Positions 10,686 to 18,072 of a DNA stretch of 64,000 nt are shown here, piece after piece. A model generated the notes under the pieces. It made no database searches, was not told the origin of the DNA, and saw only the letters and a program-made list of their open reading frames with translations. Position numbers and translations under genes: made by a program. The stretch is from assembly GCA_002700385.1 (NCBI GenBank), contig PADC01000002.1, forward strand, positions 1 through 64,000, read 5' to 3'. The stretch is from Cycloclasticus sp. Lineage in GTDB: Bacteria; Pseudomonadota; Gammaproteobacteria; Methylococcales; Cycloclasticaceae. Each line of letters starts with the position of its first letter. Within the stretch, counting starts at the first letter, position 1.

Positions 10686-10710
10686 AATGAGAATGATTTG
10701 CATTATCATT
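10686..10710. promoter_or_regulatory. Fur box 1
   Basis: TGAGAATGATTTGCA matches the 7-1-7 Fur consensus TGATAATNATTATCA with three mismatches and continues into a second half-site, TTATCATT. It lies 34-58 bases before the outer-membrane barrel gene at 10744 and overlaps its probable -35 region, so iron repression of the rightward operon is likely. Confidence 0.75.
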
Positions 10711-10743: not shown

Positions 10744-11688
10744 ATGAAAAAAATAAACCGCTTCTTACCCTCGACTTGTTTAATTCTACTAACGGTACTA
10801 ACCCTACCCTCAGTACATGCAGGCGAGAACCAGTGGCTATACGCAAAAGGGACTGATACAAGACCCAAAGGCAGTTTTGAATTTAAAATTAGCGATATTA
10901 TTAAAGTTGGCAAGGGATCTGGTGATTATGTCTCACATGATTTTCGTCCTGAAATAGAATACGGGATTACTGATAAGTTATCCGTTAACGCAGAACTAGT
11001 TTTCTTTGATCATAATTACTCAGTTGACGACGCAGAAAACGACCCCGTTTTTTCTACGCAAGGTGGGACTAACGAACGCTATAACAAAACACAATTTGCA
11101 GGCTATGAAATTGGCCTGAAGTACAACATCCTTAGCCCATATAAAGACATGTTCGGGCTCTCTGTAGGCCTAGCATTTGAGCATCGGGATCATTACCGCC
11201 TTGACGGCGCTGATATTGATCAAGACTCTATCACGACGAACCTTTTTTTCCAGAAAGATTTCCTTGACGATACTTTAATATTCGTTATTAACCCCAAAGC
11301 CGAATTTGAGCGAAGAAAAACACCCAATGTCTTAGAAGAGGAAATTTCATTAGAGCTGATGGCGGCTGTTTCCTATCGTTTCATCCCTAGATGGACAGTA
11401 GGCCTCGAGTATAGGTCACAGTCTGATTATCTAAGTGTCCAAGAAAATGGAAAATTTGAAGAAGGTGTTAGCCGTTCAAGTTTTGATTTGACCGACTTTC
11501 GTCTAGGCGATAGGTTTCAAAGCGGCCAATATATAGGCCCAACGATCCATTATGCAGAACAACGCTGGTGGGCCACAGCTGGAATTTTATTCCAATTTCA
11601 AGGTGGTGGAGGCTTTAGCAAAGACGGTAAAAATTATGATGAACATGAGCGGTACCATACTGGATTCTCCTTTGGTTATGAATTCTAG
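10744..11688 (+). CDS. Fur-controlled outer-membrane beta-barrel protein
   Basis: Signal peptide (MKKINRFLPSTCLILLTVLTLPSVHA, split expected after Ala-26) followed by alternating polar/hydrophobic strands and a C-terminal aromatic residue (FSFGYEF), the usual marks of an outer-membrane barrel. The 314-residue protein resembles DUF6662-type barrels, but that family assignment is from memory. It is the first gene of a five-gene rightward operon under Fur box 1. A role in passage of iron compounds or as a docking site for electron transfer is inference. Confidence 0.75.
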   Translation: MKKINRFLPSTCLILLTVLTLPSVHAGENQWLYAKGTDTRPKGSFEFKISDIIKVGKGSGDYVSHDFRPEIEYGITDKLSVNAELVFFDHNYSVDDAENDPVFSTQGGTNERYNKTQFAGYEIGLKYNILSPYKDMFGLSVGLAFEHRDHYRLDGADIDQDSITTNLFFQKDFLDDTLIFVINPKAEFERRKTPNVLEEEISLELMAAVSYRFIPRWTVGLEYRSQSDYLSVQENGKFEEGVSRSSFDLTDFRLGDRFQSGQYIGPTIHYAEQRWWATAGILFQFQGGGGFSKDGKNYDEHERYHTGFSFGYEF

Positions 11689-11689
11689 T

Positions 11690-12214
11690 ATGTTAAGGCA
11701 ATTTCTAATCATTCTTTGCCTGACATTAGGCTCAACCTACGAGGCAAATGCCGAGGTTTTTTTTACTTTGGACGAGGCAAGGCAAACCCTTTGGAAAGAC
11801 ACACCCATGCATTCAGTTCCAATCACACTGACAAAATCCCAAGTAGACGCTATTGAAAAGCATTCCAAAATTAGAGTGCTAACTAATAAAGTTAACGCTT
11901 GGAAGACCTCAACTGGAGGGTGGTTTATTGTTGATCAGGTCATTGGCAAACATGAAATGATTGACGTTGCGGTCGCTATTAATCGTACGGGTAAAATCAA
12001 AGGCCTGAAAATAATGACATACAACGAGAGTTACGGCTCCGAAGTCAGGAATCCAAAGTGGTTATCCCAATTCCACGGGCGTGATAACACCATACACTTA
12101 AAACTAGATGAGCAGATAGATAATATTACAGGTGCCACCCTTTCTTGTAGACATATAACTGACGGTGTAAACCGCTGGGCGCATACCTGGGATATCGTTT
12201 TACGTCATTTATAA
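11690..12214 (+). CDS. periplasmic FMN-binding (flavinylated) protein, cassette A
   Basis: Signal peptide at residues 1-21 and an FMN-binding domain of the NqrC/RnfG type. The covalent flavin attachment motif is seen as DNITGATLS near the C-terminus; in this family ApbE attaches FMN to a threonine of this motif. The frame is open from 11552, inside the previous gene, but the ATG at 11690, one base after that gene's stop, gives a clean signal peptide and translational coupling. The product is 174 residues. The paralogue at 16273 has the same layout. Likely an electron carrier facing the periplasm. Confidence 0.85.
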   Translation: MLRQFLIILCLTLGSTYEANAEVFFTLDEARQTLWKDTPMHSVPITLTKSQVDAIEKHSKIRVLTNKVNAWKTSTGGWFIVDQVIGKHEMIDVAVAINRTGKIKGLKIMTYNESYGSEVRNPKWLSQFHGRDNTIHLKLDEQIDNITGATLSCRHITDGVNRWAHTWDIVLRHL

Positions 12215-12248: not shown

Positions 12249-12677
12249 GTGATTAGGCTAAAAATTCCACCGCTATATCAGTCTTTCTTTTTATGCTTAT
12301 TTGTCAGCAGCTGGTGTAGCGGCCTTTTATTCTTTGTTTTAAGTAAATGGTTTCGCATAACAGGAGAATACGGCTTGCAGCAACACCCTTGGCAATTTCC
12401 TTCAATACAAATTCATGGCGGAACTGCATTTTTGGCCATGATTTGCTTTGGTATTTTACTTGGCACTCATATTCCCTCTGGTTGGAAAAACAAAAAAAAA
12501 CGAAAATCAGGCATCGCATTGATTGTCGTTGCATGTTTTTTAATCATCACGGCTTATTTACTGTATTACATCGCCCAAGACAACCTGAGGGAGTACATTG
12601 TGTACGCACACTTAACTCTTGGCTTAGCCTTTCCCTTTGTTTTGATAGTACATCTTATCAAAAAAAATACATTTTGA
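12249..12677 (+). CDS. four-helix membrane protein with paired histidines, possible b-type cytochrome
   Basis: 142 residues with four hydrophobic helices. Histidines lie at the faces expected for haem ligation: IHGG and GTH bracket helix 2 (18 residues apart) and AHLT and IVH bracket helix 4. Similar small membrane cytochrome-like proteins accompany FMN-binding proteins in other bacteria. Haem binding is inferred from histidine placement, not shown. The start is GTG with only a weak purine stretch upstream. It lies between the flavoprotein and the PepSY protein in cassette A, so it may pass electrons from the membrane to FMN. Confidence 0.6.
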   Translation: MIRLKIPPLYQSFFLCLFVSSWCSGLLFFVLSKWFRITGEYGLQQHPWQFPSIQIHGGTAFLAMICFGILLGTHIPSGWKNKKKRKSGIALIVVACFLIITAYLLYYIAQDNLREYIVYAHLTLGLAFPFVLIVHLIKKNTF

Positions 12678-12693
12678 ACTAACAGACACTGAC

Positions 12694-13227
12694 ATGAAAG
12701 TAAATTGGAAAAAATTCAACCGAAAAGTACATTACTGGGGCTCCATCATTTGTGCAATCCCTATTGGCATCATCATTATTACTGGCACGATACTTATACT
12801 AAAAAAGCAAATCGAATGGGTTCAGCCACCCACTATAAAAGGAAAAGGAATCACACCCTTGGTAAGTTTTGCTGAAATATTTGACGCATCCAGAAAAGTC
12901 CAGCAGGCTAACATACAATCATGGGAAGACATTGACCGCTTGGATATCAGACCCAGCAAGGGTGTGATTAAAGTTCGCGGGAAAAATCAGTGGGAAATTC
13001 AAATTGATCATCAGTCACTAAAGATTTTGAACATTGCTTATCGGCGATCGGACTTCATTGAATCCATCCATGACGGAAGCTATTTTCACGATAATGTAAA
13101 ACTGTTCGTTTTTTTTCCATCCGCTATTTTGTTGTTAATTTTATGGGGAACAGGCCTTTACCTCTTTTTTAAAACCTATTTCTCTAAAAGAAATGTAAAG
13201 ATAAAGCGGGCCTCCCTTGAAACCTAA
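12694..13227 (+). CDS. PepSY-associated TM protein, cassette A
   Basis: 177 residues with an N-terminal helix (about 20-40), a soluble PepSY-like segment facing the periplasm, and a C-terminal helix (about 140-162). The N-terminal RKVHYWGS and the later IHDGSYFHD correspond to the paired histidine motifs of PepSY_TM reductase-like proteins. Members near FMN-binding proteins are thought to act in transmembrane electron transfer, including ferric reduction. The last 11 bases overlap the next gene. Confidence 0.8.
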   Translation: MKVNWKKFNRKVHYWGSIICAIPIGIIIITGTILILKKQIEWVQPPTIKGKGITPLVSFAEIFDASRKVQQANIQSWEDIDRLDIRPSKGVIKVRGKNQWEIQIDHQSLKILNIAYRRSDFIESIHDGSYFHDNVKLFVFFPSAILLLILWGTGLYLFFKTYFSKRNVKIKRASLET

Positions 13228-13866: not shown

Positions 13867-14292
13867 TTAACCAATAAACACATAGATATTATTTTCATCT
13901 GTGCGTATCGAGAATTTTTGCAAATTCAAGATGGCTGGGCCTTGTAGTACACGACCATTAGCTTCAAACTTAGCTCCGTGACAAGGGCACACAATATAAC
14001 CTTCCTTAGCCTCAGTTGTGCATTGTTGATGAGTACACCTCATTAATAAAGCCTCAAAATTATTACCAACTATCTTAGCTAAATATATAGGGTAATCTTC
14101 AACAGGGTGATCAAGTAAAACGTAGTTATGGTACTCAAATAATGAGCGACTAACAACCAGTTCATTCTCAGCATTAACAGCCAATTTTCTGTATTTTTTT
14201 TTTGCTACTTGGCAGGCAGATAATGAAGTAACAACACTAGTAACTCCTAACGATAAGGCGCCAAACTTTTGTAAAAACACCCTTCTTTTCAT
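13867..14292 (-). CDS. Tat-exported Rieske [2Fe-2S] lipoprotein
   Basis: 141 residues. The N-terminus has a twin-arginine signal (KRRVFLQKFG) and a lipobox-like LSAC at about residues 24-27, so a folded protein would be exported and lipid-anchored. The Rieske ligands are visible as CTHQQC and, 11 residues on, CPCHG. No catalytic domain is attached, so it should be a simple electron carrier. It is convergent with cassette A (5-base gap). Its start lies 85 bases from the perfect Fur box 2, which it may share with the rightward gene at 14420. Confidence 0.88.
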   Translation of the reverse strand: MKRRVFLQKFGALSLGVTSVVTSLSACQVAKKKYRKLAVNAENELVVSRSLFEYHNYVLLDHPVEDYPIYLAKIVGNNFEALLMRCTHQQCTTEAKEGYIVCPCHGAKFEANGRVLQGPAILNLQKFSIRTDENNIYVFIG

Positions 14293-14350: not shown

Positions 14351-14401
14351 TTGACAAAATATTGATTAATTGTCTTAATGATAATGATTATCATTATCAT
14401 T
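14351..14401. promoter_or_regulatory. promoter with Fur box 2, perfect palindrome
   Basis: A rightward TTGACA at 14351 is followed by a 25-base perfect palindrome (12-1-12) at 14377-14401. Its core GATAATGATTATCATTATC is the Fur consensus apart from the central base, and it covers the probable -10 and start site. This is the strongest Fur site in the window and sits between the divergent Rieske gene and the gene at 14420. Confidence 0.92.
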
Positions 14402-14419
14402 AAGAAAAGGGCAAAAAAC

Positions 14420-14929: not shown

Positions 14930-14941
14930 TATTATTGCAAA

Positions 14942-14956
14942 TGAGAATGATTTACA
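14942..14956. promoter_or_regulatory. Fur box 3
   Basis: TGAGAATGATTTACA matches the 7-1-7 Fur consensus with three mismatches and is nearly identical to Fur box 1 (TGAGAATGATTTGCA). It lies about 50 bases before the porin gene at 15008. Confidence 0.7.
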
Positions 14957-15007
14957 TTAAGATTTGGATTGCTATTTATTGTTTACATTAACAGGAGAAA
15001 AATTTAA

Positions 15008-16255
15008 ATGAGCATTCCAGTCTTTCGTAAAAAAACAAGCGTCGCTTTGTTGCTAAGCTTAGCCATAGCACCCCATGCATCGGCCTTAACACTTGAGGAT
15101 TTAGCCAAAAGGCTGGATGCTCTGGAAAAACAGAACACACAACTGATTCAAGAAAATTCCAAACTTCGCGAAGCCGTGGCTCAAACCAACGATAAGGTGG
15201 AAGCAGCGGTTATCGCCACAGAATCAATCGCCGACAGTAGCAGCGGTATTCAAAAATTAGCGAATTTTGCTGATAAAACAACCATTGGCGGTTACGGCGA
15301 AGTGCATTACAACAATTTATCTGGCAAAGGCGGTGCAAGCGATAAAGACGAAATAGATTTTCACCGATTCGTCTTATTCTTTGGACACGAATTTACGGAC
15401 AGCATCCGTTTCTTCTCCGAGTTAGAGCTGGAACATAGTTTAGCGGGAGAAGGCAAAGAAGGGGAAGTTGAGCTTGAGCAAGCCTATATTGATTTTGATC
15501 TAAACGATCATCACACAGCTCGGGCAGGTTTGTTCATGCTACCTATTGGTATTATCAATGAAACACACGAACCACCGACTTTTTACGGCACCGAACGTAA
15601 CCCAATAGAAAAGAATATTATTCCAGCCACTTGGTGGGAAGCCGGCGCCGGTTTGCATGGCCAGCTAGGCCATGGGCTAAGTTATGATGTTTATGTTCAT
15701 TCCGGCCTTGCGGTCCCCAATAGCTTTAAAATCCGCAGCGGACGCCAAAAAGTCAGTGAAGCAAAGGCCAATGACCCTGCCGCAACTGCTCGCCTTAAAT
15801 ACACGGGTATCCCTGGTCTAGAAGTCGCTTTAACAGCTCAACACCAGCAAGATATGGGGCAAGGCTTAGTCGATGGACTCGATAGCGGTAACCTAATAGA
15901 AACACACGCGGTTTGGTCTACTGGTCCATTCACTTTAAAAGCCTTATATGCGGCTTGGGATATTGACGGGTCAGCTGTTGAAGCAGCAGGCGCTGATAAG
16001 CAGAAAGGTTTTTACTTAGAGCCTTCTTACCAATTATCTGAAAAATTTGGCGTATTCGCACGCTTTAACCAATGGGATAACAAGGCTGGAAGCAACTCAG
16101 GGTCTGCTAAAGATTCCGAAAAAGAGCAATGGGATCTTGGTGTAAACTACTGGCCACATGAAGATGTTGTTATCAAAGCCGACTACCAATACCAGAATAA
16201 CGATGATGGTAAAGATCAAAACGGGCTTAACATCGGTGTAGGGTATCAATTCTAA
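15008..16255 (+). CDS. Fur-controlled porin with N-terminal coiled coil
   Basis: Signal peptide to about residue 26 (ASA), then a short coiled coil (LAKRLDALEKQNTQLIQENS) of the kind that trimerises porins or spans to peptidoglycan, then a 16-18-strand-like barrel ending GVGYQF. The conserved pattern GGYGEVHYNN ... FHRFVLFFGHEFTD is typical of phosphate-selective-type/OprO-like porins. The product is 415 residues with AGGAG about nine bases before the ATG. First gene of cassette B; together with Fur box 3 it suggests uptake of an iron-linked solute, with specificity unknown. Confidence 0.85.
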   Translation: MSIPVFRKKTSVALLLSLAIAPHASALTLEDLAKRLDALEKQNTQLIQENSKLREAVAQTNDKVEAAVIATESIADSSSGIQKLANFADKTTIGGYGEVHYNNLSGKGGASDKDEIDFHRFVLFFGHEFTDSIRFFSELELEHSLAGEGKEGEVELEQAYIDFDLNDHHTARAGLFMLPIGIINETHEPPTFYGTERNPIEKNIIPATWWEAGAGLHGQLGHGLSYDVYVHSGLAVPNSFKIRSGRQKVSEAKANDPAATARLKYTGIPGLEVALTAQHQQDMGQGLVDGLDSGNLIETHAVWSTGPFTLKALYAAWDIDGSAVEAAGADKQKGFYLEPSYQLSEKFGVFARFNQWDNKAGSNSGSAKDSEKEQWDLGVNYWPHEDVVIKADYQYQNNDDGKDQNGLNIGVGYQF

Positions 16256-16272
16256 TCAGCCCGAATAAATAG

Positions 16273-16773
16273 ATGAAACGGATATTACTTATTATTGCTG
16301 TGTTTTTCTTTCAAGCAGCCTCTGCCAAAGGGGTCTATCAGACCCCTGAGGCTTTTTTGAACCATGCATTTAACGGTAATATTCCGCCCCTATCATCGGT
16401 CTGGCTAACTAAGGAAAAAAAACAAGCCATTACAGATATTCTTCAACACAACCCCTCATTTATCCGTGTTAAATATTGGCAAAATGGATCAAAAACCGCC
16501 TGGATACTGGATGAAATAGGCAAGGAAAAACCGATCACCGTCGGTGTTATTGTTGAAACTGGAAAAATACAGCAGCTCAAAGTTCTCAGTTTCAGAGAGT
16601 CTAGAGGTTGGGAAGTAAAGCACGCCTTTTTTACGCGCCAATTTGACAATATTGGCATCAATGACAAACAACAGCTCGACAAACCCATTGACGGTATTTC
16701 AGGCGCGACCTTATCCGTCCGAGCGCTTAAAAAAATTGCCCGAATTGCACTTTATCTTGAACAACAGCTTTAA
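16273..16773 (+). CDS. periplasmic FMN-binding (flavinylated) protein, cassette B
   Basis: 166 residues with a signal peptide (residues 1-18, ASA) and an FMN-binding domain. The flavinylation motif DGISGATLSVRAL is near residue 145. The central IVETGKIQQLKVLSFRESRGWEV parallels the cassette A paralogue (MTYNESYGSEV). The gene starts 18 bases after the porin and ends four bases before the PepSY gene. No ApbE transferase gene is present in the window, so flavin attachment would depend on a gene elsewhere. Confidence 0.87.
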   Translation: MKRILLIIAVFFFQAASAKGVYQTPEAFLNHAFNGNIPPLSSVWLTKEKKQAITDILQHNPSFIRVKYWQNGSKTAWILDEIGKEKPITVGVIVETGKIQQLKVLSFRESRGWEVKHAFFTRQFDNIGINDKQQLDKPIDGISGATLSVRALKKIARIALYLEQQL

Positions 16774-16776
16774 ACA

Positions 16777-17520
16777 ATGAATAACAAACGACGCCGTAAA
16801 CTCACCCCTTTGTATATCTGGCATCGATACACAGGGCTTTTAGCTGCCTTGTTTGTTATTTTTATCAGTCTCAGCGGCCTTGCATTAAATCACACCGACG
16901 ACTTAGCGCTAAAAAACCAATACCTTAGCAGCAACTTTCTATTGGAGAGATATAAAGTTCAGCCCCCCACTACAATCAAACAATTCAGAGCAGAGCAACA
17001 CGTTATCACTCAAGCCGACGACTTATTATTCATCAACAACAGTCGACCCATTGCTACCGAGGCCCTTTTAACCGGTGCTGTGAAACTTGAAAACTTTCTG
17101 CTCGTTGCACTAAGCGATGCCTTGCTCCTTGTCGACGACAACGATCAAGTCGTAGAAACGTTAAGCAGCCTTGATGGCGTCCCCAGTCAAATAAACCGCA
17201 TCGGACTCAATGATCAGCAGCAGCTCTATCTTTTTTCAAATCACCAGATGTATCATTTAAGTACAGACCTCTATCTTCATAAGGTGAATGAAACGGTGCC
17301 TGTTCAATGGATACAGGAAGAGCCTCTATCAAAAAACACTCAGCGTTCTATGGTTCAACGCTATAAATCTAACATCATATCGCTGGAAACATTCTTGTTA
17401 GACATTCATAGTGGCCGTTTCTTTGGCTCATACGGTGTGTTATTTTTTGATGTTGTCGGCATCATTCTTTTGTTTTTAGCCTTCTCCGGCCTTATTATCT
17501 GGGTACGCCAACGACGATAA
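16777..17520 (+). CDS. PepSY-associated TM protein, cassette B
   Basis: 247 residues: a basic N-terminus, helix 1 (about 18-38) with WHRYTG before it and LNH after it, a periplasmic domain of about 160 residues, then IHSGRFFGSYG and a final helix ending in WVRQRR. These paired histidine motifs are those of the PepSY_TM family, which includes reductase-like membrane proteins. It follows the FMN protein by four bases. With that protein it forms the likely inner-membrane-to-periplasm electron path of cassette B. Confidence 0.82.
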   Translation: MNNKRRRKLTPLYIWHRYTGLLAALFVIFISLSGLALNHTDDLALKNQYLSSNFLLERYKVQPPTTIKQFRAEQHVITQADDLLFINNSRPIATEALLTGAVKLENFLLVALSDALLLVDDNDQVVETLSSLDGVPSQINRIGLNDQQQLYLFSNHQMYHLSTDLYLHKVNETVPVQWIQEEPLSKNTQRSMVQRYKSNIISLETFLLDIHSGRFFGSYGVLFFDVVGIILLFLAFSGLIIWVRQRR

Positions 17521-17529
17521 CAACCCGTA

Positions 17530-18072
17530 ATGAAAGAAGAACTTGCTTTTTATTATCAACTTTTACGACAACATGCTTTAAATGATTCTCACAGCGGCAA
17601 TGGATCTGTACGGATAGGAAATTCATTTGTCATAACTAAAACGGGCGCCTGTGCCGACACCGTAAAAACCGACGAATTGATTCATTGCAAATTGAACGAA
17701 GCGCCACCACAAAACGCTTCATTAGATGCCACTATCCACCAACATATCTACCAGTCAAACAAACAACATCAGGCCATTTTACATGCCCATAATCCATACA
17801 CCATCGCGCTAACATTACAAAGCTTGTTGTTTAGTCCCATTGATTTTGAAGGAAAACTCTATTTTGGTGAACTGCCGGTGATCGAATGCGAAACGGAGCA
17901 TTACCTTCAGGTCATGCCTCAACGAATTAACGATTGTTTAAAACAACACCCCATTGCTATTGTTCAATCTCATGGCGTGTATTCTGCTGCTGAAAATTTA
18001 GAATTAGCCTATAAATGGCTGTGCTCTATTGAGCAATCTGCAAAAATAAAGTGGTTAGCTCAACAAGCCTAA
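17530..18072 (+). CDS. class II aldolase/adducin family protein
   Basis: 180 residues of the zinc-dependent class II aldolase fold. The metal ligands are visible as HAHNP (about residue 83) and the later SHGVY (about 141), with GNGSVRIG near the N-terminus. The usual acidic residue of the family's SSE motif appears as SLDATIH (Asp rather than Glu). The family holds fuculose-phosphate aldolases and methylthioribulose-phosphate dehydratases; the substrate here cannot be told. It lies ten bases after the PepSY gene in the Fur-controlled operon, an unusual place for it. Convergent with the next gene, overlapping by four bases. Confidence 0.8.
   Translation: MKEELAFYYQLLRQHALNDSHSGNGSVRIGNSFVITKTGACADTVKTDELIHCKLNEAPPQNASLDATIHQHIYQSNKQHQAILHAHNPYTIALTLQSLLFSPIDFEGKLYFGELPVIECETEHYLQVMPQRINDCLKQHPIAIVQSHGVYSAAENLELAYKWLCSIEQSAKIKWLAQQA

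Follow-up and report, generated by a model that had tools for sequence, protein, structure and literature searches.

Background

What does a bacterium gain from an operon in which a porin gene is followed by genes for a flavoprotein and a PepSY-type membrane protein, all behind a box of the type bound by the iron regulator Fur? This question is raised by a locus of Cycloclasticus sp. (assembly GCA_002700385.1, contig PADC01000002.1), which we analysed within a window of 64,000 nucleotides, positions 1 to 64,000 of the contig (contig C8 of the 2.52 Mb genome designated here G000). An earlier note on this DNA, made from the sequence alone, had read the locus as the second of two side-by-side cassettes, each with a flavin mononucleotide (FMN)-binding protein, a PepSY protein and a Fur box; we designate these cassettes A and B, and the products of the second porin B, FMN-B and PepSY-B. 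Here we propose, with a probability of roughly 0.6, that cassette B is repressed by iron and serves to assimilate it reductively, working together with the Feo system.

Results

Gene content and conservation of cassette B

The three core genes lie where the earlier note had placed them, as an FMN and PepSY core with its own porin, and their products exceed the cut-offs of the corresponding Pfam models: porin B scored 46.1 bits against Porin_O_P (cut-off 20.9), FMN-B 41.3 bits against FMN_bind (cut-off 22) and PepSY-B 51.1 bits against PepSY_TM (cut-off 28.8). The span first assigned to the cassette, 14942-18072, begins inside the Fur-type box, as it should; its end is that of a fourth gene, left unnamed at the time, which encodes a class II aldolase-family protein (102 bits against PF00596). 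The gaps between the porin, FMN, PepSY and aldolase genes, 17, 3 and 9 bases, suggest that the four form one transcript. The aldolase gene is intact in 10 of 14 syntenic Cycloclasticus-type loci. It is split in L037, only a fragment of it lies in L042, and no copy was detected in L036 or L045; given this patchy distribution, we regard it as an accessory rather than as part of the core.

Cassette B is an old syntenic locus in Cycloclasticus. Orthologues of FMN-B (53-83% identity) were found in 13 of the 17 other genomes of the genus and in one genome of another family (G029), and not in G002, G006, G009 and G010, which are 73-83% complete. The order porin-FMN-PepSY recurs in 14 loci (L036-L049, the porin of L037 being cut by the contig end), flanked by an ErpA-like gene on the upstream side and by a DUF5063 gene on the downstream side, each in 12 of the 14. 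Within the genus, mean pairwise identity is 79% for the porin, 66% for the FMN protein and 51% for the PepSY protein.

Outside the genus the triplet, a survey of which the earlier note had proposed, does recur. Named genomes, scanned with the porin alignment, gave at least 513 relatives, and the best 80 were kept, a sample biased to close porins and including four from the genus. The FMN gene follows the porin gene in 79 of these 80 best loci (the exception is L064), and a PepSY gene lies no more than 3.5 kb downstream in 74; it is missing from L060, L061, L064, L078 (contig ends), L123 and L127. Holders of the triad include Shewanella, Methylophaga, Porticoccus, Thiohalobacter, Aliikangiella and Aliiglaciecola. 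For a count from the other end of the operon, 370 genomes of the class were sampled; 81 of them, the host and one other Cycloclasticus included, match PepSY-B at E-values (E) of 1e-10 or below. From these, 50 loci were sampled: those of the 30 best matches, together with 20 from the 22 weakest genomes (the partial matches of G324 and G079 were excluded). An FMN gene lies within 300 bp upstream of the PepSY gene in 48 of the 50, about 1.1 kb off in L187, and was not found nearby in L189; a porin gene lies within 1 kb in 43, at 1.9 kb in L187 and 2.7 kb in L196, is lost to contig ends in L161 and L206, and was not found nearby in L189, L190 and L194. The porin-first and PepSY-first counts together make the three genes a unit, these exceptions aside. 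The lone homologue in L189 (genome G135) is weak, has no Pfam match at E 0.01 and adjoins a HemJ homologue. Shewanella SO_0797-0799 was also considered as a triad operon and rejected; its published descriptions name a TonB-dependent receptor for SO_0798 and a protein of the thioredoxin family for SO_0797.

Neighbouring genes of 76 loci were grouped by single-linkage clustering. Besides the triad, no same-strand cluster recurred in more than 11 of the 76, and a DUF3581 gene on the opposite strand recurred in 13; two larger clusters consisted of antisense frames, none of them on the + strand. The five annotated clusters comprised a nucleotidyltransferase (below cut-off), 6-phosphogluconate dehydrogenase, an MMR_HSR1-type GTPase, a CvfB-type S1 protein and the DUF3581 protein.

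Fur-type boxes and the link to feoABC

Both cassettes carry Fur-type boxes without mismatch, in agreement with the earlier note, and the box of cassette B is kept across genera. Allowing up to two mismatches to AATGANAATNATTNNCATTA, the window holds 10 matches, several of them overlapping, where shuffles expect 0.13. At one mismatch or fewer, the whole genome has four such places, against none in a reversed control: cassette A, a small gene between the two cassettes, cassette B itself, and C12:198259. At this last place the box ends 15 bp 5' of feoA, which is followed by feoB and feoC, and all three Feo proteins exceed their Pfam cut-offs. At two mismatches, nine places were found and three in the control. 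One of the nine, C8:29302, falls within an open reading frame of the window and is probably a chance match; another stands 70 bp 5' of the gene of a TonB-dependent receptor, close to where contig C3 begins (L149, ~4835).

The box begins 57-70 bp 5' of the porin gene in the window, as it does in 12 other Cycloclasticus genomes; upstream of the porin of L045 it is weak (14 of 21 positions), and L037, where the contig ends, stands outside the comparison. A motif built from the 13 Cycloclasticus sites was applied to 74 porin upstreams from other genera (76 minus two with little sequence), with distances taken from the start of homology, rather than from the true start codon, and with the better strand scored. 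It exceeded the 99th percentile of dinucleotide shuffles at 61 of the 74 and the 99.9th at 53. The generic 19-bp Fur consensus gave a less clean separation, reaching at least 13 of 19 positions at 39 of 77 named-locus porin upstreams and in 6.4% of shuffles. A 12-site version of the motif, scored without shuffles, gave 21.7 bits before feoA, and 21.8 bits (L052) and 18.0 bits (L054) before porin-FMN pairs of the methanotroph family. On the strength of a promoter box that is conserved in relatives and common to feoABC, cassette B is a putative member of the Fur regulon.

Porin B

The AlphaFold model of porin B (mean predicted local distance difference test, pLDDT, 78.4) consists of a long N-terminal helix, coiled-coil-like and of lower confidence, and 16 strands. 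Its closest solved folds are OprP (Z 27.4, root-mean-square deviation (rmsd) 3.5) and OprO (Z 27.1, rmsd 2.9), at 15-19% identity in the fold alignments; searching solved structures with the sequence gave weak matches only. Positions conserved above 90% in 35 diverse homologues comprise 18 acidic, 10 basic and 4 His, so that, on the question of an arginine ladder, the conserved charges lean acidic, not basic, a balance counted from the alignment. The barrel of the window porin itself has 48 acidic and 25 basic residues. Furthermore, one strand carries the conserved run E138-x-E140-x-E142-H143, where the alternation of residues along the strand suggests that the three glutamates point into the pore.

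FMN-B and PepSY-B

FMN-B has a single N-terminal hydrophobic segment (residues 4-22, by hydropathy only) and carries the flavinylation motif [S/T]GA[S/T] in the form SGATLS, of which GATLS is invariant in 22 of 22 aligned rows. The host genome encodes four FMN_bind proteins and one ApbE. ApbE was detected in 15 of the 18 genomes of the genus, and in two of the three without it, G009 and G010, cassette B was not found either. None of the three triad proteins contains a cysteine, which speaks against c-type heme in any of them.

PepSY-B has two hydrophobic segments. In its model (mean pLDDT 80.6), the periplasmic part, residues ~63-178, forms 12 strands at a pLDDT of mostly 88-94, modelled as about three propeller-like blades. 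The best VIA-align matches are BT4663-type sensor domains, at a moderate Z of 9.7 (rmsd 2.7 over 106 residues), and other proteins of propeller type (NHL, WD40, cytochrome cd1). Foldseek found only matches of low coverage (best E 0.0008, TM-score 0.30 of the query), which limits the propeller reading to the insert. PepSY proteins were absent from the 50 VIA-align matches listed; since FoxB matches PepSY-B by sequence, this absence is no evidence against kinship. Indeed, the PepSY-B profile matches FoxB (7abw) at E 0.00016 over the whole chain, a match carried by the LHSGR helix (independent E-value 0.0021), the first helix with HRxxG being weak on its own (1.6). All 33 diverse rows of the alignment keep H16, H39 and H211, and in FoxB conserved histidines hold two hemes (PMC10979944). 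The four membrane helices and two PepSY domains per chain that mark FoxB and PiuB are not found in PepSY-B, which is modelled with PepSY-type helices around the propeller-like insert instead of a PepSY domain. With only two helices, one chain would need a partner, and we infer a dimer of half-units.

Cassette A and the apparent modularity of the device

Table 1. Positions of the cassette A and B features in the window
Feature	Position	Strand	Basis or remark
Fur-type box, cassette A	10686..10705	+	0 mismatches
Cassette A outer-membrane protein, DUF6662	10744..11688	+	PF20367
FMN-A, FMN_bind protein with TGATLS motif	11687..12214	+	PF04205; start codon uncertain
Cassette A protein with four transmembrane segments (4-TM), His-containing, weakly cytochrome b561/DUF4405-like	12249..12677	+	Pfam scores below cut-off
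PepSY-A, PepSY_TM protein	12694..13227	+	PF03929 positions 2-160
Overlapping Fur-type boxes	14376..14402		5' of small gene 14378/14420-14782
Fur-type box, cassette B	14940..14959	+	0 mismatches to AATGANAATNATTNNCATTA; kept before orthologous porins
Porin B, N-terminal helix and predicted 16-strand OprP/OprO-like barrel	15008..16255	+	PF07396, AlphaFold model, fold match
FMN-B, FMN_bind flavoprotein with N-terminal hydrophobic segment and SGATLS flavinylation motif	16273..16773	+	PF04205
PepSY-B, two-helix PepSY_TM membrane protein with propeller-like periplasmic insert and invariant H16/H39/H211	16777..17520	+	PF03929/PF16357
Class II aldolase-family protein, operon end, outside core	17530..18072	+	PF00596

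The two neighbouring cassettes had been taken for paralogues, but their origin by local duplication is not supported. Only the FMN proteins are clearly related (36% identity over 119 residues), and even these fall into separate, long-branched clades. Their tree has 65 rows (40 from named loci, 15 Cycloclasticus-type, 3 A-type, 6 from the methanotroph family and 1 other FMN_bind protein of the host) and was built without the host's L002 and most of L021-L035; because of a very long outgroup branch, we use it only for the separateness of the A, B and methanotroph clades. The PepSY proteins, for which kinship had likewise been supposed, align weakly (hhalign probability 78, clear only at the last helix), and their matches to the PepSY_TM model cover different halves, 2-160 for PepSY-A and 174-294 for the best stretch of PepSY-B. 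Pfam assigns the outer-membrane proteins of A and B to different families, and cassette A further encodes the 4-TM protein, another outer-membrane protein and, in convergent orientation, a Rieske protein. The adjacency is local as well: A-type FMN proteins were found in 3 of the 18 genus genomes, the host included (in a search with FMN-B), and in the other two, G014 (L050) and G001 (L051), cassette A lies at another site, away from B, with its 4-TM, PepSY, second outer-membrane and Rieske genes.

What does survive is the idea of versions of one device. Relatives of the DUF6662 protein were found in 4 of the 370 class genomes at E of 1e-8 or below, the host included, and in the other three loci (L211, L212, L213) the gene order continues with an A-type FMN protein and then ApbE, followed by a protein like the 4-TM protein of cassette A (by tblastn in L211 and L212, by eye only in L213). 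In L211 (5589-9797), a B-type porin (36% identity) stands between DUF6662 and the FMN gene, with ApbE and the 4-TM protein following in the same cluster, so that A-type and B-type outer-membrane proteins precede a single FMN protein. The 12-site Fur motif gave 21.5 bits at L213, 14.1 bits at L212 and only 0.3 at L211. The membrane partner varies, too: in L060 a protein like the 4-TM protein (29% over 90 residues) occupies the place of PepSY-B, and in two loci of the methanotroph family, L052 and L054, the porin and FMN genes are followed by a His-containing membrane protein of another kind. That of L054 (6399-6941) has 180 residues and no Pfam match. In L123 (2186-3732), from a metagenome-assembled genome of Kiritimatiellae, a Cation_efflux (cation diffusion facilitator) protein comes directly after porin and FMN_bind in place of PepSY, a further link to metals. 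From these variants the device looks modular: an outer-membrane channel and a putatively flavinylated carrier of the FMN_bind family are combined with a membrane partner that can be exchanged.

Two smaller genes of the region also recur. The small protein encoded between the cassettes (+ strand) has no Pfam match, and the boxes ahead of it are perfect; its homologues adjoin cassette A in L050 and L051 and adjoin B without A in G007 (L040:8106-8513), where the 12-site motif gave 2.9 bits upstream. The Rieske-domain protein (13867-14292, - strand), with a start that appears twin-arginine-like by eye, is convergent at the end of cassette A, as also in L050 and L051.

Discussion

A proposed model for reductive iron uptake

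The proposal that cassette B serves reductive iron assimilation draws on gene order and its conservation, conservation of the Fur box, the flavinylation motif, predicted folds and the presence of feoABC and ApbE. Under iron shortage, Fur would leave the promoter. The porin, a predicted diffusion channel of 16 strands whose barrel is rich in acidic residues, would admit iron or small iron complexes to the periplasm without TonB. FMN-B, having presumably received a covalent FMN from the single ApbE of the genome, would pass electrons to Fe(III), and those electrons would be supplied from the membrane via the PepSY_TM protein, whose FoxB-like histidines may hold heme, probably in a dimer, given two helices per chain. 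The resulting Fe(II) would enter via FeoABC, whose promoter carries the same box. There are precedents for parts of this scheme: HiuB is a Fur-regulated PepSY protein for which FeoAB is proposed to act downstream (PMC13001220), and E. coli OmpC acts with FeoB in one ferrous iron pathway (PMC7315122). A bolder, joint version seems doubtful to us, namely a widespread TonB-independent iron-uptake machine with a dedicated, cation-leaning porin, a periplasmic flavoprotein reductase and a membrane cytochrome of a new kind. Each chain of this cytochrome would bear three propeller blades on two PepSY-type helices, so that a homodimer would bring four helices together as a heme bundle beneath a propeller of six blades.

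Several observations weigh against the reductive iron proposal. OprP and OprO, the nearest solved relatives of porin B, transport phosphate or polyphosphate, not iron. No iron-transport gene lies inside the cassette B operon, and 13 of the 74 porin upstreams lack a Fur motif above the 99th shuffle percentile. In G013 (87% complete), which has cassette B, ApbE was not found, and FeoB_C, present in 17 of the 18 genus genomes, was not found in G008, which is ~99% complete and has cassette B. Finally, TonB receptor plugs occur in all 18, so the route would be an addition to TonB-dependent uptake and not the sole one.

Among other explanations, the one that survives best, though we hold it unlikely, is the use of siderophores or organic iron, with the porin receiving one specific ferric complex independently of TonB, in a role like that of LbtU, and the FMN/PepSY pair freeing iron from its ligand. 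Known PepSY_TM proteins reduce ferri-siderophores, and a conserved, dedicated porin, the most conserved member of the triad in the genus, suggests a particular cargo. However, the predicted barrel is like those of ordinary 16-strand diffusion porins, the model of PepSY-B lacks the PepSY domains by which FoxB is capped and which in such proteins make up the substrate cavity, and the LbtU model NF033652 had no match in the host genome, although control genomes gave none either.

It is improbable that the cassette serves another metal, for example copper, with Fur control as indirect physiology. CrpH of Bordetella pertussis, a PepSY_TM protein, has been linked to copper (PMC13038864), and the Cation_efflux protein after FMN in L123 would fit; however, the boxes are Fur-type and common to feoABC and a TonB receptor gene, and no copper gene is among the five annotated recurrent neighbour clusters. 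Still less probable is an iron-sparing function in which the flavoprotein substitutes for scarce heme and Fe-S proteins in periplasmic electron transfer: the Fur-type box and the use of flavin agree with it, but the proposed electron donor, PepSY-B, is itself heme-protein-like, and a dedicated porin would not be needed. Least probable of all is an outward flow of electrons, with porin and flavoprotein as an outer-membrane conduit reducing iron minerals at the surface, for despite the formal analogy of flavoprotein, porin and membrane redox protein to porin-cytochrome conduits, the predicted 16-strand barrel is probably too narrow for a protein of the size of FMN-B and the cysteine-free triad offers no site for c-type heme.

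If reductive iron assimilation is indeed the function of cassette B, many Gammaproteobacteria (Shewanella, Methylophaga, Porticoccus and Cycloclasticus among them) would own a reductive iron route without a TonB receptor, and aerobic marine bacteria would have a source of Fe(II) for Feo. It would also provide a function for three protein families at once. The host is an oil-degrading marine bacterium, and the operon is common to many aquatic bacteria.

Comparison with known systems

Among the open full-text papers listed by our searches, we found no description of the triad, nor any paper joining "phosphate-selective porin" with FMN-binding or PepSY proteins, supplements and subscription papers lying outside this scope. 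The word "porin" is absent from the main text of the study of PepSY-like flavinylated systems (Meheust et al. 2021, PMC8238504), whose supplementary tables may contain the triad without remarking on it.

Each part of the cassette has relatives among known systems. Porin B shares with OprP and OprO the predicted 16-strand barrel, the Porin_O_P family and a Z of about 27, and differs from them in its Fur-type box, its acidic-leaning conserved charges and the low identity given above. PepSY-B shares with the ferri-siderophore reductases of the FoxB/HiuB type histidines at the ends of membrane helices and a context of iron; FoxB is a four-helix bundle with two PepSY caps and the gene of a TonB-dependent receptor alongside, whereas PepSY-B has two helices with a propeller-like insert and shares its operon with a diffusion porin. 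Similarly, hiuABC of Caulobacter crescentus combines a Fur-regulated outer-membrane transporter with a PepSY protein proposed to feed FeoAB, but its transporter is a TonB-dependent receptor instead of a porin, it includes the small membrane protein HiuC, and no FMN protein is named in the available part of the report (PMC13001220).

The closest likeness is to the PepSY-like flavinylated systems, which, as described in PMC8238504, have a PepSY_TM protein beside an exported ApbE substrate, are in some cases Fur-repressed and assigned to iron reduction, and encode DUF2271 in 2833 of 3220 clusters, with ApbE frequent among them. Cassette B likewise places a PepSY_TM gene within five genes of that of a putative ApbE substrate with a signal peptide (the export segment by hydropathy only). 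In comparison with those systems, its substrate is an FMN_bind protein, its ApbE is encoded elsewhere in the genome and a porin heads the operon. Cassette B is a variant of the PepSY-like flavinylated systems, set apart by a dedicated porin, FMN_bind in place of DUF2271 and a predicted propeller-like insert.

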